From Sphingosinicella flava (GTDB lineage Bacteria; Pseudomonadota; Alphaproteobacteria; Sphingomonadales; Sphingomonadaceae), in NCBI RefSeq assembly GCF_016025255.1, contig NZ_CP065592.1:1221122-1285121 (forward strand): a stretch of DNA of 64,000 nucleotides, given 5' to 3'. A program made the position numbers and the translations under genes. This document shows positions 47,065 through 54,169 of this stretch, piece by piece (position 1 is the first letter of the stretch; each line of letters begins with the position of its first letter). The notes beneath the pieces are model-generated. The model made no database searches. It saw nothing but the letters and a program-made list of their open reading frames with translations, and was not told the origin of the DNA.

Positions 47065-47712
47065 TCAGAATTCGCGATCGCGGCTGAGGTCGTCGACTTC
47101 GTTCATGATCGTCTGAAGCGCGGTCTTGTCGCTGTCGGTCCGGTGCTCGCGACGGGACGGAAGATTGCCTTCGCTCAGCAATTGCTCGAGCGCGACACGC
47201 CCGCGCGCCACGCGGCTCTTGATGGTGCCGACGGCGCAGCCGCAAATCTCCGCCGCTTCCTCATAAGCGAAGCCGCCCGCGCCGACGAGAATCAGCGCTT
47301 CGCGCTGGGGCTGCGGCAAATGCATCAGCGCGCGCTGCATGTCGCCAAGCTCGACATGGCGATCCTGGCTCGCGGGCGCCGCGAGCAGCTTGGACGCCGT
47401 GATCTCGTCCCATTCGCCCTTGAAACGCGCGCGGCGCATCTGGGACAGGAACAGGTTGCGCAGGATGATGAAGGTCCAGGCGCGCATGTTGGTGCCCGCC
47501 TGAAAACGCTTGCGCGCGGCCCAGGCCTTGAGCAGCGTTTCCTGAACCAGATCGTCGGCGAGATCGCGGCTACCGGACAAAGAGCGCCCGAAAGCGCGCA
47601 GATGCGGGATGACCTGCGCCAGCTGGTCCTTGAATTCGTCGTCGGGCAACGGGACGAGGACGTCCGGATTGCCGTTATCTTGTACCGCGGTGGGCGTTTC
47701 GCCAACCATCAT
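47065..47712 (-). CDS. ecfG: EcfG, general stress response sigma factor
   Basis: A 215-residue ECF sigma factor. The region 2 pattern 'ADDLVQETLLKAWAARKRFQAGTNMRAWTFIILRNLFLSQMRR' includes the -10 recognition helix; region 4 reads 'LPQPQREALILVGAGGFAYEEAAEICGCAVGTIKSRVARGR', whose helix-turn-helix reads the -35 box. The adjacent phyR and nepR genes identify it as EcfG. In non-stressed cells NepR holds it; phosphorylated PhyR takes NepR away and EcfG transcribes stress genes from GGAAC-N16-17-cGTT promoters. ATG 47712 has GGGGGAT upstream; an ATG at 47745 lacks one. Confidence 0.93.
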   Translation of the reverse strand: MMVGETPTAVQDNGNPDVLVPLPDDEFKDQLAQVIPHLRAFGRSLSGSRDLADDLVQETLLKAWAARKRFQAGTNMRAWTFIILRNLFLSQMRRARFKGEWDEITASKLLAAPASQDRHVELGDMQRALMHLPQPQREALILVGAGGFAYEEAAEICGCAVGTIKSRVARGRVALEQLLSEGNLPSRREHRTDSDKTALQTIMNEVDDLSRDREF

Positions 47713-47794
47713 AAATCCCCCGTGAAGGCGGTAAGCATCTGACATCCATGGCTGATTTGGGGAGCGGACGCACCCCGTAATATGTCGTGGGTAA

Positions 47795-47962: not shown

Positions 47963-47993
47963 AACCCGCCAACGCGGCACGCGCTGGCGGGTT
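47963..47993 (-). terminator. Hairpin terminator of phyR, overlapping an EcfG promoter
   Basis: AACCCGCC (47963-47970) pairs with GGCGGGTT (47986-47993), extended by a few more pairs, with a 5-nt loop and a short TTT after it on the minus strand. It lies 10 bases past the phyR stop. Confidence 0.6.
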
Positions 47994-47995
47994 CC
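47971..47995 (-). promoter_or_regulatory. EcfG promoter upstream of the 45-residue gene and ecfG
   Basis: On the minus strand GGAAC (47995-47991), a 17-nt spacer, then GTT (47973-47971) match the EcfG consensus. Transcription would start near 47962, about 30 nt before ATG 47932. This predicts positive autoregulation of ecfG. Confidence 0.75.
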
Positions 47996-48003
47996 AAATG
48001 TTG

Positions 48004-48801
48004 CTAGGCCGGAACGGTCGCCGTGTCGAAGAACAGGGCTTGCGCGATCGCCGCCTTCACCGTCGAACGCTGGAACGGCTTGGTGATGAGGAAGGTCGGT
48101 TCCGGGCGTTCGCCGGTCAGCAGACGTTCCGGGAAGGCGGTGATGAAGATCACCGGCACCGAAAATTCGGCCAGGATATCCTTCACCGCGTCGATGCCGG
48201 AGCTGTCGTCGGCGAGCTGGATATCGGCCAGAACCAGGCCCGGTCGATGCGCCCGCGCCTGCGCGACCGCTTCGTCGCGCGTCACCGCGACGCCCGTCAC
48301 CGTATGGCCGAGATCGCGGACGATCGTTTCGATATCCATGGCGATGATCGGCTCGTCCTCGATGATGAGGACTTCGGCGCGCGTCTGGCGCTCGATTTCT
48401 TCCAGCGCTTCGGCGACAAGCCGCTCGACCTCGTCCGCTTCGGCACCGATCAGATAGCCGGTATCCTCGGGCGTGAAGCCTTCCATGGCCGTCAGCAACA
48501 AGGCCTGGCGGGACAAGGGCGTGATCCGCGCGAGGCGGGCTTGGGCAATGCCTTCGGCATCCTCGAAGCCGGATCCCGCGCCCGGATCCTCTTCGATATT
48601 GGCGGTCGACCAGATGGCATGGAAGGTCCGGTAAAGACCAAGGCGCGCGTCGACATCGCGTGGAAAATCGTCCGGCGCCGCGACGATCGCCTCCAGCGTC
48701 GCACGCACGAAGGCGTCGCCATGCTGCTGCGAGCCCGTCAGGGCGCGCGCATAGCGCCGCAAAAAGGGAAGGTGAGGCGCGAGTTCCTGGCCTAGCGACA
48801 T
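48004..48801 (-). CDS. phyR: PhyR, anti-anti-sigma response regulator
   Basis: A 265-residue protein with the unique PhyR arrangement. Residues about 1-125 are an EcfG-like sigma mimic domain ('LPFLRRYARALTGSQQHGDAFVRATLEAIV', 'RITPLSRQALLLTAMEGFTPEDTGYLIG'), and residues about 142-258 are a receiver domain with phospho-acceptor Asp193 (VLADIQL), acidic pair Glu148/Asp149, Thr221 and Lys241. When phosphorylated it opens and binds NepR, releasing EcfG. ATG 48801 follows AAGGAG. Divergent from nepR with a 288-bp shared upstream region. Confidence 0.96.
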   Translation of the reverse strand: MSLGQELAPHLPFLRRYARALTGSQQHGDAFVRATLEAIVAAPDDFPRDVDARLGLYRTFHAIWSTANIEEDPGAGSGFEDAEGIAQARLARITPLSRQALLLTAMEGFTPEDTGYLIGAEADEVERLVAEALEEIERQTRAEVLIIEDEPIIAMDIETIVRDLGHTVTGVAVTRDEAVAQARAHRPGLVLADIQLADDSSGIDAVKDILAEFSVPVIFITAFPERLLTGERPEPTFLITKPFQRSTVKAAIAQALFFDTATVPA

Positions 48802-48936
48802 ATTCGTTACGACTCCTTCATGACCGGGACGATAGTTGAGAACCCGCCCCGCGCTTTGCAAGCCCGCCGCGCGGCGCCTGCCCGATGACCTATCTGCACG
48901 AAGAAACCGGCCCAGCCCGCCCTTCACACGAAACAT

Positions 48937-48961
48937 GGAACCAACAGCGCAGTTTTTTGTT
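48937..48961 (+). promoter_or_regulatory. EcfG promoter of nepR inside an inverted repeat
   Basis: GGAAC (48937-48941), a 17-nt spacer, GTT (48959-48961). The flanks CATGGAA (48934-48940) and TTCCATG (48961-48967) are perfect inverted repeats, so the complementary strand reads GAAAC-N17-GTT toward phyR, one mismatch from consensus. It may act as a two-way promoter, with leaders of about 120-130 nt on each side. Confidence 0.7.
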
Positions 48962-49089
48962 TCCATGCCACTGCAGGCAATTTATTTCGCCTTGCAATTT
49001 TTCGTGCTGCCCGGGGCGGAAGCGCTTCCGCCGTCCGGGCATATTGATGATGGATTGCGGGCGCGGCCGTGCCGCGAGGGGTACAGACT

Positions 49090-49290
49090 TTGAACTTTCA
49101 CGACGACAAAGACGGCGACAGCCGGCGAAAGAGCGACAATCTGCCAGACAACGGCCCCGACTTCGCTCCGAAGAGCAAGAAGAAGCCTGCTTCGCCGGAA
49201 GTGGGCCATGCCCTGCGCTCGGTCTATCAGCAGACGATCAACGAAGATATTCCGCCCGAAATGCTCGATCTGCTCGGAAAGCTCGGCTAA
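49090..49290 (+). CDS. nepR: NepR, anti-sigma factor of EcfG
   Basis: A 66-residue anti-sigma factor. Its conserved core 'VGHALRSVYQQTINEDIPPEMLDLLGKL' (residues 38-65) contains both NepR helices; the N-terminus is polar and Lys-rich. I chose TTG 49090 because GAGGGG lies 8 bases upstream; GTG 49069 would add seven residues without one. NepR binds EcfG in resting cells and phospho-PhyR in stressed cells. It is divergent from phyR and followed by phyP, not by ecfG. Confidence 0.93.
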   Translation: MNFHDDKDGDSRRKSDNLPDNGPDFAPKSKKKPASPEVGHALRSVYQQTINEDIPPEMLDLLGKLG

Positions 49291-49329: not shown

Positions 49330-50889
49330 GTGAATTTTCTCAGCAACAGCCGGATCGCATCCGCTTTCGGGCGATTGCCGACAGGCCCCAAGATGCTAGT
49401 TATTCTGGCATCGTGCCTCCTCCCTCTCCTGGTCATTGCGATACTTGCTTCCGTCCAGAGCGCGCAGCAAAATCGCAACAAGCGGCAGGCCGAGGCCGAG
49501 GCCCGTTTGGAAGTGGCGGCCCAGCGCATCGATTCCGCTTTGTCTCGGATCGGCCTCACCATCGGGGCCGCCACTGCGGCGGTGGAATTCTCGCCGCCCG
49601 AATCCAAGGTCTGCGAAGCCACGCTCCGCCGGTTGAGCGGCACCCAGACCGCAGGCCGTTACGCCCTTTACGGCCAGAATAGCGAAGTGCGTTGCGCGAC
49701 CCCCGGCTTCGTGCCGCCCAACATACCGCAGAGCCTGGAACGCAGTGGAGCAGTGACCGAATTGCTTTCCACGGGCGAAGCGCTGCGCTTCACCCTGTTC
49801 GGGGCGGGCGGGCGTGTCGAAGGCGTGGGCGAACTGCCGATCGCTGCCTTGAGGCGGCTCGCCCTTCCACCGGATTCCCCGAAAGATTTCACGCTCGACA
49901 TGGTGCAGGGCGGACGATCCATATCGTTGACCGACGGATTTCGCGGCGGCCCGCTGATCGAGACGGTGAGCCTGTCGAAACCGTTGACGCCGGACGGTTT
50001 GGAGCTTCGTCTCGTCGCGGGCGCCGTGCCGATCAGCGCCAATGAATTCGTGATGATCCTGCTCCCCGTCTTGATGTGGGTCGGCGCGGCGGCCATCGGC
50101 TGGGTCATCGTCAGCCGCCTTCTTCTGCGTCCGCTCGTGCGCATGCAGAAAGTGGTGTCGGCCTACCAGCCCGGCGACCGGCAATTCTATCTGCCGCTGA
50201 TCCGCACCCCGGCGCAGGAAATACGGGATCTCGGCGACGCCTTCGAACAATTGACCCGCACCGTCGCCCGCCACGAAGCGGATCTGGAGGACGCCGTGGA
50301 GCGCCAGAGGAAGCTGGTGCGGGAGGTGCATCACCGTGTGAAGAACAACCTCCAGGTCGTCGCCTCTCTGCTCAACATCCATTCGCGCGGCTCGCCTGAC
50401 GAGGGCGTCGCGGCGGCTTACGCCTCGATCCAGCGGCGCGTCGACGCGCTCGCCGTCGTCCATCGCAATCACTATGCGGAGTTGGAGGAAAATCGCGGCG
50501 TGGCGTTGAAGCCGCTCATTTCCGAATTGAGCTCCAACCTGCGCGGCACAGCGCCTTCCAGCGCCGCCAATATGGCGATCGCCCTCAACGTCGCCCCGGT
50601 TCACGTGACTCAGGATGTCGCGGTCTCGGTCGCCTTCCTCATCACCGAAATTGTCGAATATGGCATGTTCTGCGGGGCGCGGAGCGTGATGATTTCCCTG
50701 TCCAACAGCGGCGACGGCACGGCGCTTTTGTCCATCATGTCGGACAGCTTGAAGCCGGAAGCGGCATGCGCGGACACCCTTACAGAGCGTTTTGAGCGGA
50801 TTATCACCGGATTGTCGCGCCAATTGCGCAGCACGATGCACAAGGATGTCGAAACCGGCTGCTATTCGCTCGCGATCACAATCGTCTGA
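49330..50889 (+). CDS. phyP: PhyP-like HisKA_2 sensor protein of the general stress locus
   Basis: A 519-residue inner-membrane protein: transmembrane helix about 20-42, periplasmic sensor about 43-237, second helix about 238-262, HAMP-like linker, then the HisKA_2 box 'REVHHRVKNNLQVVASLLNIHSRG' (His334/335). The ATPase domain is degenerate. The N-box position reads FLITEIVEYGMFC (437-449), with both conserved Asn replaced, and no DxGxG motif follows. That fits PhyP of Sphingomonas melonis Fr1, reported as a negative regulator of PhyR, so phosphatase rather than kinase action is likely. GTG 49330 is the first start after nepR, probably the same operon. Confidence 0.85.
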   Translation: MNFLSNSRIASAFGRLPTGPKMLVILASCLLPLLVIAILASVQSAQQNRNKRQAEAEARLEVAAQRIDSALSRIGLTIGAATAAVEFSPPESKVCEATLRRLSGTQTAGRYALYGQNSEVRCATPGFVPPNIPQSLERSGAVTELLSTGEALRFTLFGAGGRVEGVGELPIAALRRLALPPDSPKDFTLDMVQGGRSISLTDGFRGGPLIETVSLSKPLTPDGLELRLVAGAVPISANEFVMILLPVLMWVGAAAIGWVIVSRLLLRPLVRMQKVVSAYQPGDRQFYLPLIRTPAQEIRDLGDAFEQLTRTVARHEADLEDAVERQRKLVREVHHRVKNNLQVVASLLNIHSRGSPDEGVAAAYASIQRRVDALAVVHRNHYAELEENRGVALKPLISELSSNLRGTAPSSAANMAIALNVAPVHVTQDVAVSVAFLITEIVEYGMFCGARSVMISLSNSGDGTALLSIMSDSLKPEAACADTLTERFERIITGLSRQLRSTMHKDVETGCYSLAITIV

Positions 50890-50901: not shown

Positions 50902-51063
50902 CTAGGATTGACCCCCTTTCGGACGCGCGACCGTCCGTTTTTTCGCCTTCTGCAATTCTTTCGCCCCTTGGCCGGCGGCATTGGCGGCATCGATCACATG
51001 AACTCTATCCTGATGCACTCCGTCGATATCGGAATGCGGCGGCGTTTTTACGGGCTTCGACAC
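50902..51063 (-). CDS. Possible 53-residue protein, unknown function
   Basis: A frame starting at GTG 51063 with AAGGAG about 10 bases upstream. The product is basic and hydrophilic (MSKPVKTPPHSDIDG... ending GAKELQKAKKRTVARPKGGQS) with no membrane segment. The stop lies in a 14-bp palindrome (CAATCCTAGGATTG, 50897-50910). It lies opposite the general stress locus, between phyP and the small RNA candidate. No family is recognised; it may be real but weakly supported. Confidence 0.4.
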   Translation of the reverse strand: MSKPVKTPPHSDIDGVHQDRVHVIDAANAAGQGAKELQKAKKRTVARPKGGQS

Positions 51064-51174
51064 GGTTTTCGGACTCCTTCCCCAAATCAACCGCCTTTTT
51101 CCCTTAGGGTTTCCAATCCCTTCGGCGCCTGGAAAAATTATTTTTACTTTGCGCATTTTTTTGGAATTTTGTAT

Positions 51175-51199
51175 GGAACCACCCGCTGCCAACATCGTT
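51175..51199 (+). promoter_or_regulatory. EcfG promoter of a candidate small RNA
   Basis: GGAAC (51175-51179), a 17-nt spacer, GTT (51197-51199) preceded by C, exactly the EcfG consensus. The preceding 90 bases are unusually AT-rich for this genome, like an UP element. No protein-coding gene starts within 290 bases. Confidence 0.75.
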
Positions 51200-51205
51200 G
51201 TGCAG

Positions 51206-51312
51206 TTTGGATAGTGACCTTTTGCCCCCCCGCTCTCGCTATCCAAGACATGAGCCCGGACGCGCTAACCTCCCCCCCCCCCCGGTAGCGCCTCCGGGCT
51301 CAAAACTTTTTA
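51206..51312 (+). ncRNA. Candidate EcfG-dependent small RNA with two C-rich loops
   Basis: Starting about 7 nt after the -10 element, the sequence folds as two hairpins. Hairpin 1: GGATAGTGA (51209-51217) pairs with TCGCTATCC (51236-51244), nine pairs with one G-T; the loop holds C7 (51225-51231). Hairpin 2: TGAGCCCGG (51251-51259) pairs with CCGGGCTCA (51294-51302), and after a 2x2 internal loop GCGCTA (51262-51267) pairs with TAGCGC (51286-51291); the loop is T then C12 (51272-51283). T5 at 51307-51311 follows, so hairpin 2 can also terminate. There is no open frame longer than 12 codons. C-rich-loop stress RNAs are known in alphaproteobacteria (GsrN of Caulobacter, EcfG-type sigma dependent; CcsR of Rhodobacter). 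Transcript ends are estimates. Confidence 0.6.
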
Positions 51313-51403: not shown

Positions 51404-51428
51404 GGAACCAGCAGGCGCGGCGGGCATT
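51404..51428 (+). promoter_or_regulatory. Weak EcfG-like promoter upstream of the entericidin-like gene
   Basis: GGAAC (51404-51408), 16-nt spacer, CATT (51425-51428) where CGTT is expected: one mismatch. A start near 51435 would give a leader of about 60 nt before the lipoprotein ATG. Confidence 0.35.
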
Positions 51429-51493: not shown

Positions 51494-51622
51494 ATGGTTC
51501 GTAAGATTATCGCGCTTTTCGCCCTCACCACGAGCTTTGCCCTTGGTGCGTGCAACACCATCGAAGGCGTGGGCGAAGACGTCCAATCGGCCGGTGAAGC
51601 GGTCGAAGACGCCGCGGACTAA
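51494..51622 (+). CDS. Entericidin-like small lipoprotein
   Basis: A 42-residue lipoprotein: signal peptide MVRKIIALFALTTSFALGAC with a lipobox (LGAC), then NTIEGVGEDVQSAGEAVEDAAD. The Cys-Asn-Thr-x-x-G-x-G-x-D-x-x-x-x-G motif is that of the entericidin EcnA/EcnB family. AGGAG (51481-51485) is 8 bases before ATG 51494; ATG 51488 is possible but too close to it. In E. coli entericidins are linked to stationary-phase lysis under sigma-S control. Here it follows the general stress locus, with a weak EcfG-like promoter upstream and a strong terminator downstream. Confidence 0.88.
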   Translation: MVRKIIALFALTTSFALGACNTIEGVGEDVQSAGEAVEDAAD

Positions 51623-51677: not shown

Positions 51678-53396
51678 TCAGACGAGATCGTCTGGAACGA
51701 ACCAATAAGGCCTGCCGAAGCGGCGGGCGCGGCCCAATTGATAAGGCAGGACGAAGCCTGTGCGCTCTTCGGGCGGCGTGTCCCGGTTGCGCGCGGCCAT
51801 CGTTCGCCAGCCGGCAAGATCGTCCGGGATCTCGCCTTCGAACAGCTGGCTCCACAAGCGCCGGCGGAAGGCAGGGATTGCAGCCCCTTCTTCCTTCCAG
51901 ACGAACCCTAATTCGGTATCCCAATTGAAGCTACGACCGTTGATGTTCGCCGACGACAGGAGGCAGAGGTCGTCATCCGCGATCAGCAGCTTGGAATGGA
52001 TGTGGATCACGCCCGCGCCAAAGGCGGTACCGCGCGTGTCCTCGAATTCATGTTCCTTGCCGTGCGGCTTTTCCTGCTTGGCGAGCGTGAAGAGGCCGAC
52101 CCGGTCCGGTCCCGCCTTCTTCAGCAGGCGGCCGAGCGCGCGGGCCTGAAGATATTCGCCGTGCCGGTGCGCGAAATTGTCGACCTGCTTCTCGAAAGCG
52201 ATCTCCTCCGGCACATTGGCGATGAGGATGATCACCTCGAGCGCCGGATTGGCCCTGAGCGCCGCTTCGACCCAGTCCGCCGCCTCGCCGGACCGGAAGA
52301 ATTGCGCCTCGATATACAGGCGCTTTCGGGCCGCGGCGATGACATTGCGATGTGCCGCCTTCAATTCGCGGATATGACGGCGCGGGCCGATGGCGAAAGC
52401 GCGCTTGGACCGGCGGGACAGGGTGCGGACGATTTGTACATCGGCTCCTCCCCCCGTCTTCGCTTTTGGCAGATCGATATCGATCGGCGTCAGCGGGTCG
52501 ATCATCAGAGACTGGCCGCATCCCCCGATCCATTCGCCGATTGTCGCGCGGTAACGCGGCAATTCGCGATTCCACAAGGCGGCAAGATGATGCGCCACGT
52601 CTCCCGCAGCCTCGCCTTCGACCAAAGCCGAAATGTCGTGCCAGGTTTGGTCGCTGCGCTGGCGGTGACGCCGGTCGTCCCAGCGCCGTTCATCGAGGTC
52701 CATCCCGCCCAGGATCGCCTTCGCGCCGTCCACAACGACGACTTTCTGGTGATAGGTGGCGGGCCACAGGCGGGGCGGCGGGCCCGCTTGCCATGCCTTG
52801 GGCCGATCGCCGTCCCAGGTGAGGTAGCGCCATAGCCCCGGCCGGGTTTCCAGCCCGCCATCGTCATGCTTCTTTTTCGCGATCAACCCTTCGACGACCT
52901 TGCGGATACGCGAACGCAGGGCGAAACGGAGGAATTGGCGGATGCCCCACCCCATCTCCCCCTCATGCTGAATGACGATAAGCTGCAGGCGGCTGCGTTC
53001 CGCCTCGTCCAATTCCTCCTGGATCGCGCGGATGCGGCGATAGGTGCACCAGGATCCCGCGTGGAGATAATCGGCAAGCACCGGCTCGAAGTCGGCGAGG
53101 AGGATGCGGACCTCGACACCGCGTTTCACCGTGTCGCGCAGCAGCGCCGCCCAATCGTGCAGGCCCTGCGCCCGCGCCCGGTCCGACCGCGTCTTCGTAT
53201 CGGGATCGAAGATGCGGAAAGACATCCAGACGCTCTTCCGGGCATCCAGCACCAGATTTTCGAGCGCCGGGAACATGTCCGCCGCCTCGATCAGCGGCGT
53301 GACGCGGCAATTCCGGCGGACCGGATAGGGCCGCTCGCCGCCCGCATGCGCCTCGCCATCGATGCTGCCGACGAAAAGCGGGCGGATATCCTGCAT
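51678..53396 (-). CDS. Phospholipase D-family protein
   Basis: A 572-residue PLD-superfamily protein with two HKD motifs: 'YHQKVVVVDGAKAILGGMDLDERRWDD' (HxKx4D) and 'HIHSKLLIADDDLCLLSSANINGRSFNWD' near the C-terminus. It has no signal peptide. Close relatives are annotated as phospholipase D or cardiolipin synthase-like; the length and separated motifs fit a phosphatidyltransferase or hydrolase, not a nuclease. ATG 53396 overlaps the tatC stop (TGATG); the frame extends upstream within tatC without function. Confidence 0.88.
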   Translation of the reverse strand: MQDIRPLFVGSIDGEAHAGGERPYPVRRNCRVTPLIEAADMFPALENLVLDARKSVWMSFRIFDPDTKTRSDRARAQGLHDWAALLRDTVKRGVEVRILLADFEPVLADYLHAGSWCTYRRIRAIQEELDEAERSRLQLIVIQHEGEMGWGIRQFLRFALRSRIRKVVEGLIAKKKHDDGGLETRPGLWRYLTWDGDRPKAWQAGPPPRLWPATYHQKVVVVDGAKAILGGMDLDERRWDDRRHRQRSDQTWHDISALVEGEAAGDVAHHLAALWNRELPRYRATIGEWIGGCGQSLMIDPLTPIDIDLPKAKTGGGADVQIVRTLSRRSKRAFAIGPRRHIRELKAAHRNVIAAARKRLYIEAQFFRSGEAADWVEAALRANPALEVIILIANVPEEIAFEKQVDNFAHRHGEYLQARALGRLLKKAGPDRVGLFTLAKQEKPHGKEHEFEDTRGTAFGAGVIHIHSKLLIADDDLCLLSSANINGRSFNWDTELGFVWKEEGAAIPAFRRRLWSQLFEGEIPDDLAGWRTMAARNRDTPPEERTGFVLPYQLGRARRFGRPYWFVPDDLV

Positions 53397-54169
53397 CAGG
53401 CCTCGATAGCCTCCGCATCCTTCTTGGGCCGCCGCCGCTCCGTGAACCAAATGGCGATCAGCGACAATTCGTAGAGGAGAATCAGGGGTATGGCGAGCAT
53501 GAACTGGGACAGGATGTCGGGCGGCGTCGCGACCGCCGCGATCACGAAGGCGATGAGGATCGCATAGCGGCGCCCGGACGCCAATTGCTTGCGCGTGACG
53601 ATCCCGGCACGCTCCAGCAGGAGCAAAAGAATGGGCAGCAGGAAGGCGATGCCGAACGCCAGGATGAAATGCATGACGAGCGAAAGATAATCGCCCATCG
53701 ACGGCAGCGCCTCCTGCTGGATGCCGCCGATATTGCCTTCATATTGAAGGAAGAATTCGAACGCCGTCGGCATCACCACATAATAAGCGAGCGCCCCGCC
53801 CAACGTGAACAGCACTGGCGTCGCGATCAGGAAGGGCAGAAACGCTTTCTTCTCGTTGGCATAAAGGCCCGGCGCGACGAACGCCCAGATCTGGTTGGCG
53901 ATGATCGGGAAGGCGAGGAAGAAGGCGGCGAAGAGCGCCACCCGCACCTCGACGAAGAAGGCTTCATAGAGCTTGGTATACACCAATTTCCCCTGCCCCG
54001 GCCCGAAGGCGTGAACCAGTGGCTGAGCCAGGAAGGCGAAGATGTCGTTCGCGAAATAAAAACAGGCGCCGAACGCGGCAAGCAGGGCCAGCATCGACCA
54101 GATGAGGCGGCGGCGCAGCTCGATGAGATGCTCCATCAGAGGCGCCTTGCTGTCGTCAATGTCCCTCAT
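53396..54169 (-). CDS. tatC: TatC, twin-arginine translocase receptor subunit
   Basis: A 257-residue inner-membrane protein with six transmembrane helices. It begins with the TatC motif '[17 protein letters not shown]' and includes '[41 protein letters not shown]' and '[19 protein letters not shown]'. TatC recognises the twin-arginine signal of folded exports. Last of tatA-tatB-tatC, with a 4-bp overlap to tatB. Confidence 0.95.

Follow-up and report, generated by a model that had tools for sequence, protein, structure and literature searches.

The general stress response locus of Sphingosinicella flava raises the question of whether the short region between its sensor kinase gene and the entericidin-like gene that follows carries a regulatory RNA of its own. 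This locus is held by the window analyzed here, i.e., the whole stretch of 64,000 nucleotides. An earlier note on this DNA had proposed an unannotated, stress-induced RNA akin to GsrN of Caulobacter. Comparison with relatives demonstrates RNA structure through covariation, as well as promoter conservation, synteny, and distribution of the element. As read from sequence, the element is best explained as a small RNA (sRNA) gene in its own right, noncoding, presumably induced by stress, and part of the general stress locus in sphingomonads.

Locus and anatomy of the element

The features of the locus are collected in Table 1. For the gene of the extracytoplasmic function (ECF) sigma factor, the best NCBIfam models remain under their cut-offs, and the name ecfG is taken from its place and domains. 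Similarly, the nearest NCBIfam model for the sensor kinase, PhyK, scores 102 bits against a cut-off of 750, and the kinase is called PhyP-like from its position. The entericidin-like gene is a neighbor, lying outside the RNA.

Table 1. Features of the stress locus and of the predicted RNA gene in the window.
Feature	Position	Strand	Basis or details
ECF sigma factor gene ("ecfG")	47065..47745	-	Pfam Sigma70_r2, Sigma70_r4_2, PhyR_sigma2 above cut-off
phyR	48004..48966	-	NCBIfam PhyR family NF006623, 375 bits (cut-off 240)
nepR	49069..49290	+	Pfam NepR, 27.8 bits (cut-off 25.7)
PhyP-like sensor kinase gene	49330..50889	+	Pfam HisKA_2, HWE_HK
Terminator-like hairpin with T6, directly 3' of kinase gene	50920..50937	+	Consensus match
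AT-rich stretch 5' of promoter	51131..51173	+	23% G+C (window, 65%)
EcfG-type promoter, GGAAC-N17-GTT	51175..51199	+	GGAAC 51175-51179, spacer 17 nt, GTT 51197-51199
Predicted RNA, ~106 nt	51206..51311	+	Start inferred from promoter distance; end, T-run
Hairpin 1	51209..51244	+	9-bp stem; loop 51218-51235; C7 at 51225-51231
Hairpin 2, terminator-like	51251..51302	+	10+6 bp; loop 51268-51285; C12 at 51272-51283
Second-kind box, GGAAC-N16-CATT, before entericidin-like gene	51404..51428	+	Read from sequence
Entericidin-like lipoprotein gene	51494..51622	+	Pfam Entericidin, 39.6 bits (cut-off 23.3)
Phospholipase D-like gene	51678..53450	-	
tatC	53396..54169	-	

The promoter motif, the two hairpins, the C7 and C12 loops, and the T5 run described in the earlier note were all found where it had placed them. 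Its count of 9 bp for hairpin 1 also stands, whereas the 9+6 bp given for hairpin 2 fall short of the 10+6 that can form. The arms of hairpin 1 are GGATAGTGA (51209-51217) and TCGCTATCC (51236-51244), and the stem grows to 12 pairs, with one G-U among the added ones, when 51206-51208 and 51245-51247 are included. After a 6-nt linker, hairpin 2 is built from TGAGCCCGGA (51251-51260) and GCGCTA (51262-51267) on the 5' side and TAGCGC (51286-51291) and TCCGGGCTCA (51293-51302) on the 3' side, followed by AAAC and TTTTT (51307-51311). The element folds with a minimum free energy of -47.4 kcal/mol, whereas 200 dinucleotide shuffles average -25.7 (z = -7.0, or -6.99 unrounded). Terminator consensus matches number 1, against a shuffle mean of 1.6; hairpin 2 is missing from the scanner's listing because its 18-nt loop exceeds the accepted range of 3-8 nt. 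The AT-rich stretch in front of the promoter is possibly an UP-like element, to judge from its composition and place: the same 43 nt average 46% G+C in 119 relatives, against 66% for the loci, with a deficit exceeding 10 points in 105 of the 119.

Conservation of promoter, fold, and setting

Boxes of the form GGAAC-N16-18-GTT occur 4 times in the window, against a shuffle mean of 3.12. This is chance level, so that a box by itself proves nothing and conservation decides; the box count was accordingly discarded as evidence. Three of the four boxes fall within the stress locus, at 47971-47995 (minus strand, on the sigma factor side), 48937-48961 (plus strand, before nepR), and 51175-51199 (plus strand, before the element). 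When a C6 run is required 14-38 nt after the box, the 2.42-Mb genome contains 1 match, at the element, and the reversed control contains none.

A BLASTN search with 191 bases against 199 genomes of the family matched 119 genomes at a loose E <= 1, and the best 30 of these, a sample biased to close relatives, were retrieved and aligned (alignment A1). GGAAC-N17/18-GTT is present in 30 of these 30 best loci, even though in 27 of them the BLASTN match leaves out the -35 element, starting no earlier than query base 54. The genomes of named species were also searched with a pattern of loop 1 that contains no promoter letters. This yielded at least 120 loci, and all 120 were analyzed; they are not independent, one assembly occurring twice and some strains being shared with A1. 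Among 80 tabulated rows, 76 bear the name of a sphingomonad taxon and 4 that of "Alphaproteobacteria bacterium." The spacer between GGAAC and GTT is 17 nt (91 loci) or 18 nt (27 loci) in 118 of the 120 loci listed, the remaining two having ATT, and the distance from GTT to the G preceding the C-run is exactly 24 nt in 118 of the 120. The EcfG-type promoter claimed for the window thus recurs, in sequence and at a fixed distance, throughout nearly the whole set, and from its sequence we infer that it depends on EcfG.

Compensatory changes in the stems among relatives, the lack of which would have counted as a refutation by the earlier note, were found in both hairpins. In A1, both sides changed in 16 of 24 pairs, 13 of these being among the 15 pairs of hairpin 2. 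None of 500 shuffles matched any of five covariation measures, and the true structure was 97.8% paired, against 27-47% for slid structures. Hairpin 1 hardly varies, in loop or stem, within this core group of 30 sequences. Covariation of hairpin 1 was assessed in a second alignment, A2, of divergent genera in which its stem is rewritten, with arms such as GGATAGCGA/TCGCTATCC, GGATAGCAA/TTGCTATCC, GAGCAGCG/CGCTGCTC, AGGACGGCA/TGCCGTCCT, and GGATGGCGG/CCGCCATCC. Across these genera (30 sequences, 24 distinct), pairing is kept, with both-side changes in 8 of 9 pairs. None of 500 shuffles reached four of the five measures; the fifth, further pair types, ran in the opposite direction, with 499 of 500 shuffles equal or higher. 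Stem ends in A2 were set by a search for complementary arms, which inflates the percentage paired, and L185, a second and odd candidate in G005, was excluded. Three of the 30 divergent loci (L195, L196, and L323) failed the automated filter; G151 (L195) was accepted after its box and hairpins had been read.

Across genera, the C-run is the best-kept part of the element, and the stem and other loop letters vary. In loop 1, the run is C7 in 112 of the 120 loci listed, C6 in 6, and C8 in 2, and in loop 2, it spans 5 to 13 C across 117 of the loci listed. Such shifts by single bases argue against a reading frame. That the element is a conserved RNA gene is, in our judgment, nearly certain.

A covariance model, R1, scores the element at 115.9 bits in its own genome, where it is single copy. 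At E <= 0.01, R1 reported 129 of 397 Sphingomonadales genomes in 24 of 82 genera and had no match in the other 268. The match fell under E 1e-7 in 117 genomes; among the remaining 12, all weaker, three (G087, G151, and G157) were accepted after reading of box and hairpins, and nine, with partial, uncertain, or other hairpins, were left uncounted. The accepted total is 120 genomes in 18 of the 82 genera. In R1-negative genera, the box followed by C6 occurs in 13 of 19 genomes, with 24 matches against 9 in the control. In a sample of 289 genomes across the class, R1 matched 2, both in the family of the window, and none outside it.

The placement of the element in the stress locus downstream of a PhyP-like gene, as first seen in the window, recurs in most loci: in 113 of the 120 loci listed, a same-strand PhyP match precedes the element by no more than 1.5 kb (median, 114 nt), and 3 of the other 7 sit within 450 nt of the end of the locus. 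In several genera with divergent copies, the element lies on another contig than phyR or at least 0.9 Mb from it (G001, G042, G087, G122, G151, G181, and G297), which makes the element an independent unit. Some of the copies in divergent genera precede an entericidin-like gene and tatC.

Comparison with known RNAs

GsrN of Caulobacter (ccna_R0081) is described (PMC5869019) as an RNA of about 100 nt driven by SigT/EcfG, whose exposed 5' loop carries six C and pairs with the G-rich leader of katG; it is stabilized by Hfq, processed to a stable 5' form, and ends in a 3' intrinsic terminator. The same paper places GsrN relatives usually, with exceptions, near ecfG, nepR, and phyR, limits those detected by BLASTN to the Caulobacteraceae, presents those of Rhizobiaceae as inferred, and reports a gsrN-like gene as absent from the outgroup Erythrobacter litoralis (PMC5869019). 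By this description, the window element resembles GsrN in its predicted length of about 100 nt, EcfG/SigT-type promoter, 5' loop with a C-run (six in GsrN, seven here), and 3' terminator hairpin. The setting in the stress locus is also alike in the window, whereas divergent sphingomonad genera hold the element elsewhere. Unlike GsrN as so described, the window element has a second C-run, in the loop of its terminator-like hairpin, and resides in a genome without a katG match. The putative Rhizobiaceae RNAs, as described there (PMC5869019), likewise combine an EcfG box, a place near the stress locus, and an exposed C-rich 5' loop. The earlier label "GsrN-like" is borne out for anatomy, promoter type, and location; the likeness is not supported for katG as a target, with no katG match in the genome and no nearby G5 run in congeners. 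C-rich loops are also a feature of the CcsR or "cuckoo" RNAs. These are stress-related alphaproteobacterial sRNAs as well, and in Rhodobacter an RpoHI/RpoHII promoter drives the cotranscription of four CcsR RNAs and a DUF1127 gene (PMC10253847); in contrast, the window element is single, not one of several RNAs in tandem behind a DUF1127 gene, has its own EcfG-type box, and follows a kinase gene.

Among Rfam models, ar14 (RF02344) represents an alphaproteobacterial sRNA with C-rich loops, and membership was rejected at 13.4 bits against a gathering threshold of 58.8. Neither the window nor ten relative loci gave an Rfam match at gathering, four matches remaining below it. Among the open-access matches listed, no paper names a general stress sRNA of sphingomonads, and a study of EcfG in Sphingopyxis (PMC7083833) contains the sRNA terms looked for only in its reference list. 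Taken with PMC5869019, our results suggest that in sphingomonads, too, the general stress response includes a C-rich-loop sRNA under the control of its sigma factor, beside Caulobacteraceae and, as inferred there, Rhizobiaceae. The family definition, comprising a covariance model, a DNA pattern, and named strains, is sufficient for experimental testing.

Mode of action, alternative readings, and other C-rich loops

The element very probably specifies an sRNA that is driven by EcfG and acts in trans, in the manner of GsrN of Caulobacter, as judged from its promoter and fold and by analogy. Under stress, PhyR would bind NepR and free EcfG to start transcription from the conserved box, and hairpin 2 is predicted to end the RNA. 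Pairing with G-rich mRNA segments would be the role of the C-run in loop 1, perhaps along with the one in loop 2, candidates being leaders and Shine-Dalgarno regions of mRNAs elsewhere in the genome. Pairing would probably be assisted by Hfq, which in this genome is a single protein with two tandem Hfq domains (C1:688523-688954; L242 ~1486-1970), and would change how the mRNA is translated or how stable it is, the kind of effect that GsrN has in Caulobacter. As a separate observation, one congener (G781, L312) has a G6 run between 30 and 24 nt ahead of its hfq start, a run absent from the hfq leader of S. flava as read.

As a target, katG is unsupported. Matches to katG were found in 10 of 13 genomes searched, including most same-genus relatives, and in none of seven congeners does a G5 run occur in the ~200 nt before katG, although two of the seven have one or more farther upstream. 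Since the RNA gene is present in a genome with no katG match, its occurrence there must have another reason than the best known target of GsrN. Three further searches, covering G6 sites before ATG, the stress locus, and a 12-nt complement, uncovered no convincing conserved site. G6 sites before ATG numbered 77 in five congeners, against 15 in the reversed control, and 11 against 7 in the genome itself; 40 of the 77 rows were read, and frames proved alike in two pairs, the first over ~58 aa (doubtful) and the second at 41% identity over 180 aa, and the excess may only reflect Shine-Dalgarno composition. In the stress loci (120 listed), 184 strong ungapped sites included 11 near the tblastn start of a checked protein (PhyR 6, PhyP 3, EcfG 1, and TatC 1), with no place in common. 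The exact 12-nt complement GGGGGYAAAAGG gave 40 matches in 30 of 61 genomes of one genus, against 44 in the control, and at least 4 of the matches fall on the RNA gene itself. A broader proposal, possible but doubtful, is that this so far unnamed Sphingomonadales RNA family serves the general stress response as its posttranscriptional arm, with both C-runs broadly competing for G-rich Shine-Dalgarno and leader sequences and so shifting the translation of many mRNAs, not that of one main target such as katG.

The outcome of the target searches would also fit an RNA that acts mainly by binding a protein, as a decoy or scaffold, and so would the near invariance of loop 1 and its stem in the core group. 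We consider this improbable, given that across genera the C-run stays while its surroundings change, as expected of a pairing seed, and that C-rich loops of known sRNAs pair with G-rich mRNA (PMC5869019). Still less probable is a regulated 5' leader, or attenuator, of the downstream entericidin-like gene. An entericidin-like frame, recognized by a loose motif, follows in 73 of the 120 loci listed (9 of the 120 end there), also in several divergent genera with phyR elsewhere, but 47 lack it; moreover, the gene has its own GGAAC box in the window, and a GGAAC-N15/16-GCATT-type box recurs before it in 36 of the 73 relatives having the frame. In the window, 182 nt separate the end of the unit, formed by hairpin 2 and the T-run, from the entericidin ATG. 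Finally, since the element directly follows the kinase gene in 113 of the 120 loci listed, it could be read as no more than the terminator region of the nepR-kinase operon, next to a chance box; this is hardly credible in view of the box distance fixed in 118 of the 120 loci listed, the separate terminator-like hairpin of the kinase gene (50920-50937), and the copies away from phyR in divergent genera.

Other C-rich loops were seen in passing. The second candidate in G005 (L185 ~1885-2040, reverse orientation) lies before another gene and has an EcfG-type box and two hairpins, the first long-looped with C8 and the second C-rich. Between apparent ahpC and ahpF genes, S. flava carries a further C-rich-loop hairpin (C1:175417-175500; L181 1501-1584), as do three relatives (L186, L192, and L193), with R1 scores of 25-32 bits. 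These ahpC-ahpF hairpins, along with other hairpins that matched R1 weakly, were read and left uncounted; the ahpC-ahpF hairpin could be a second C-rich-loop RNA, derived from an mRNA end.
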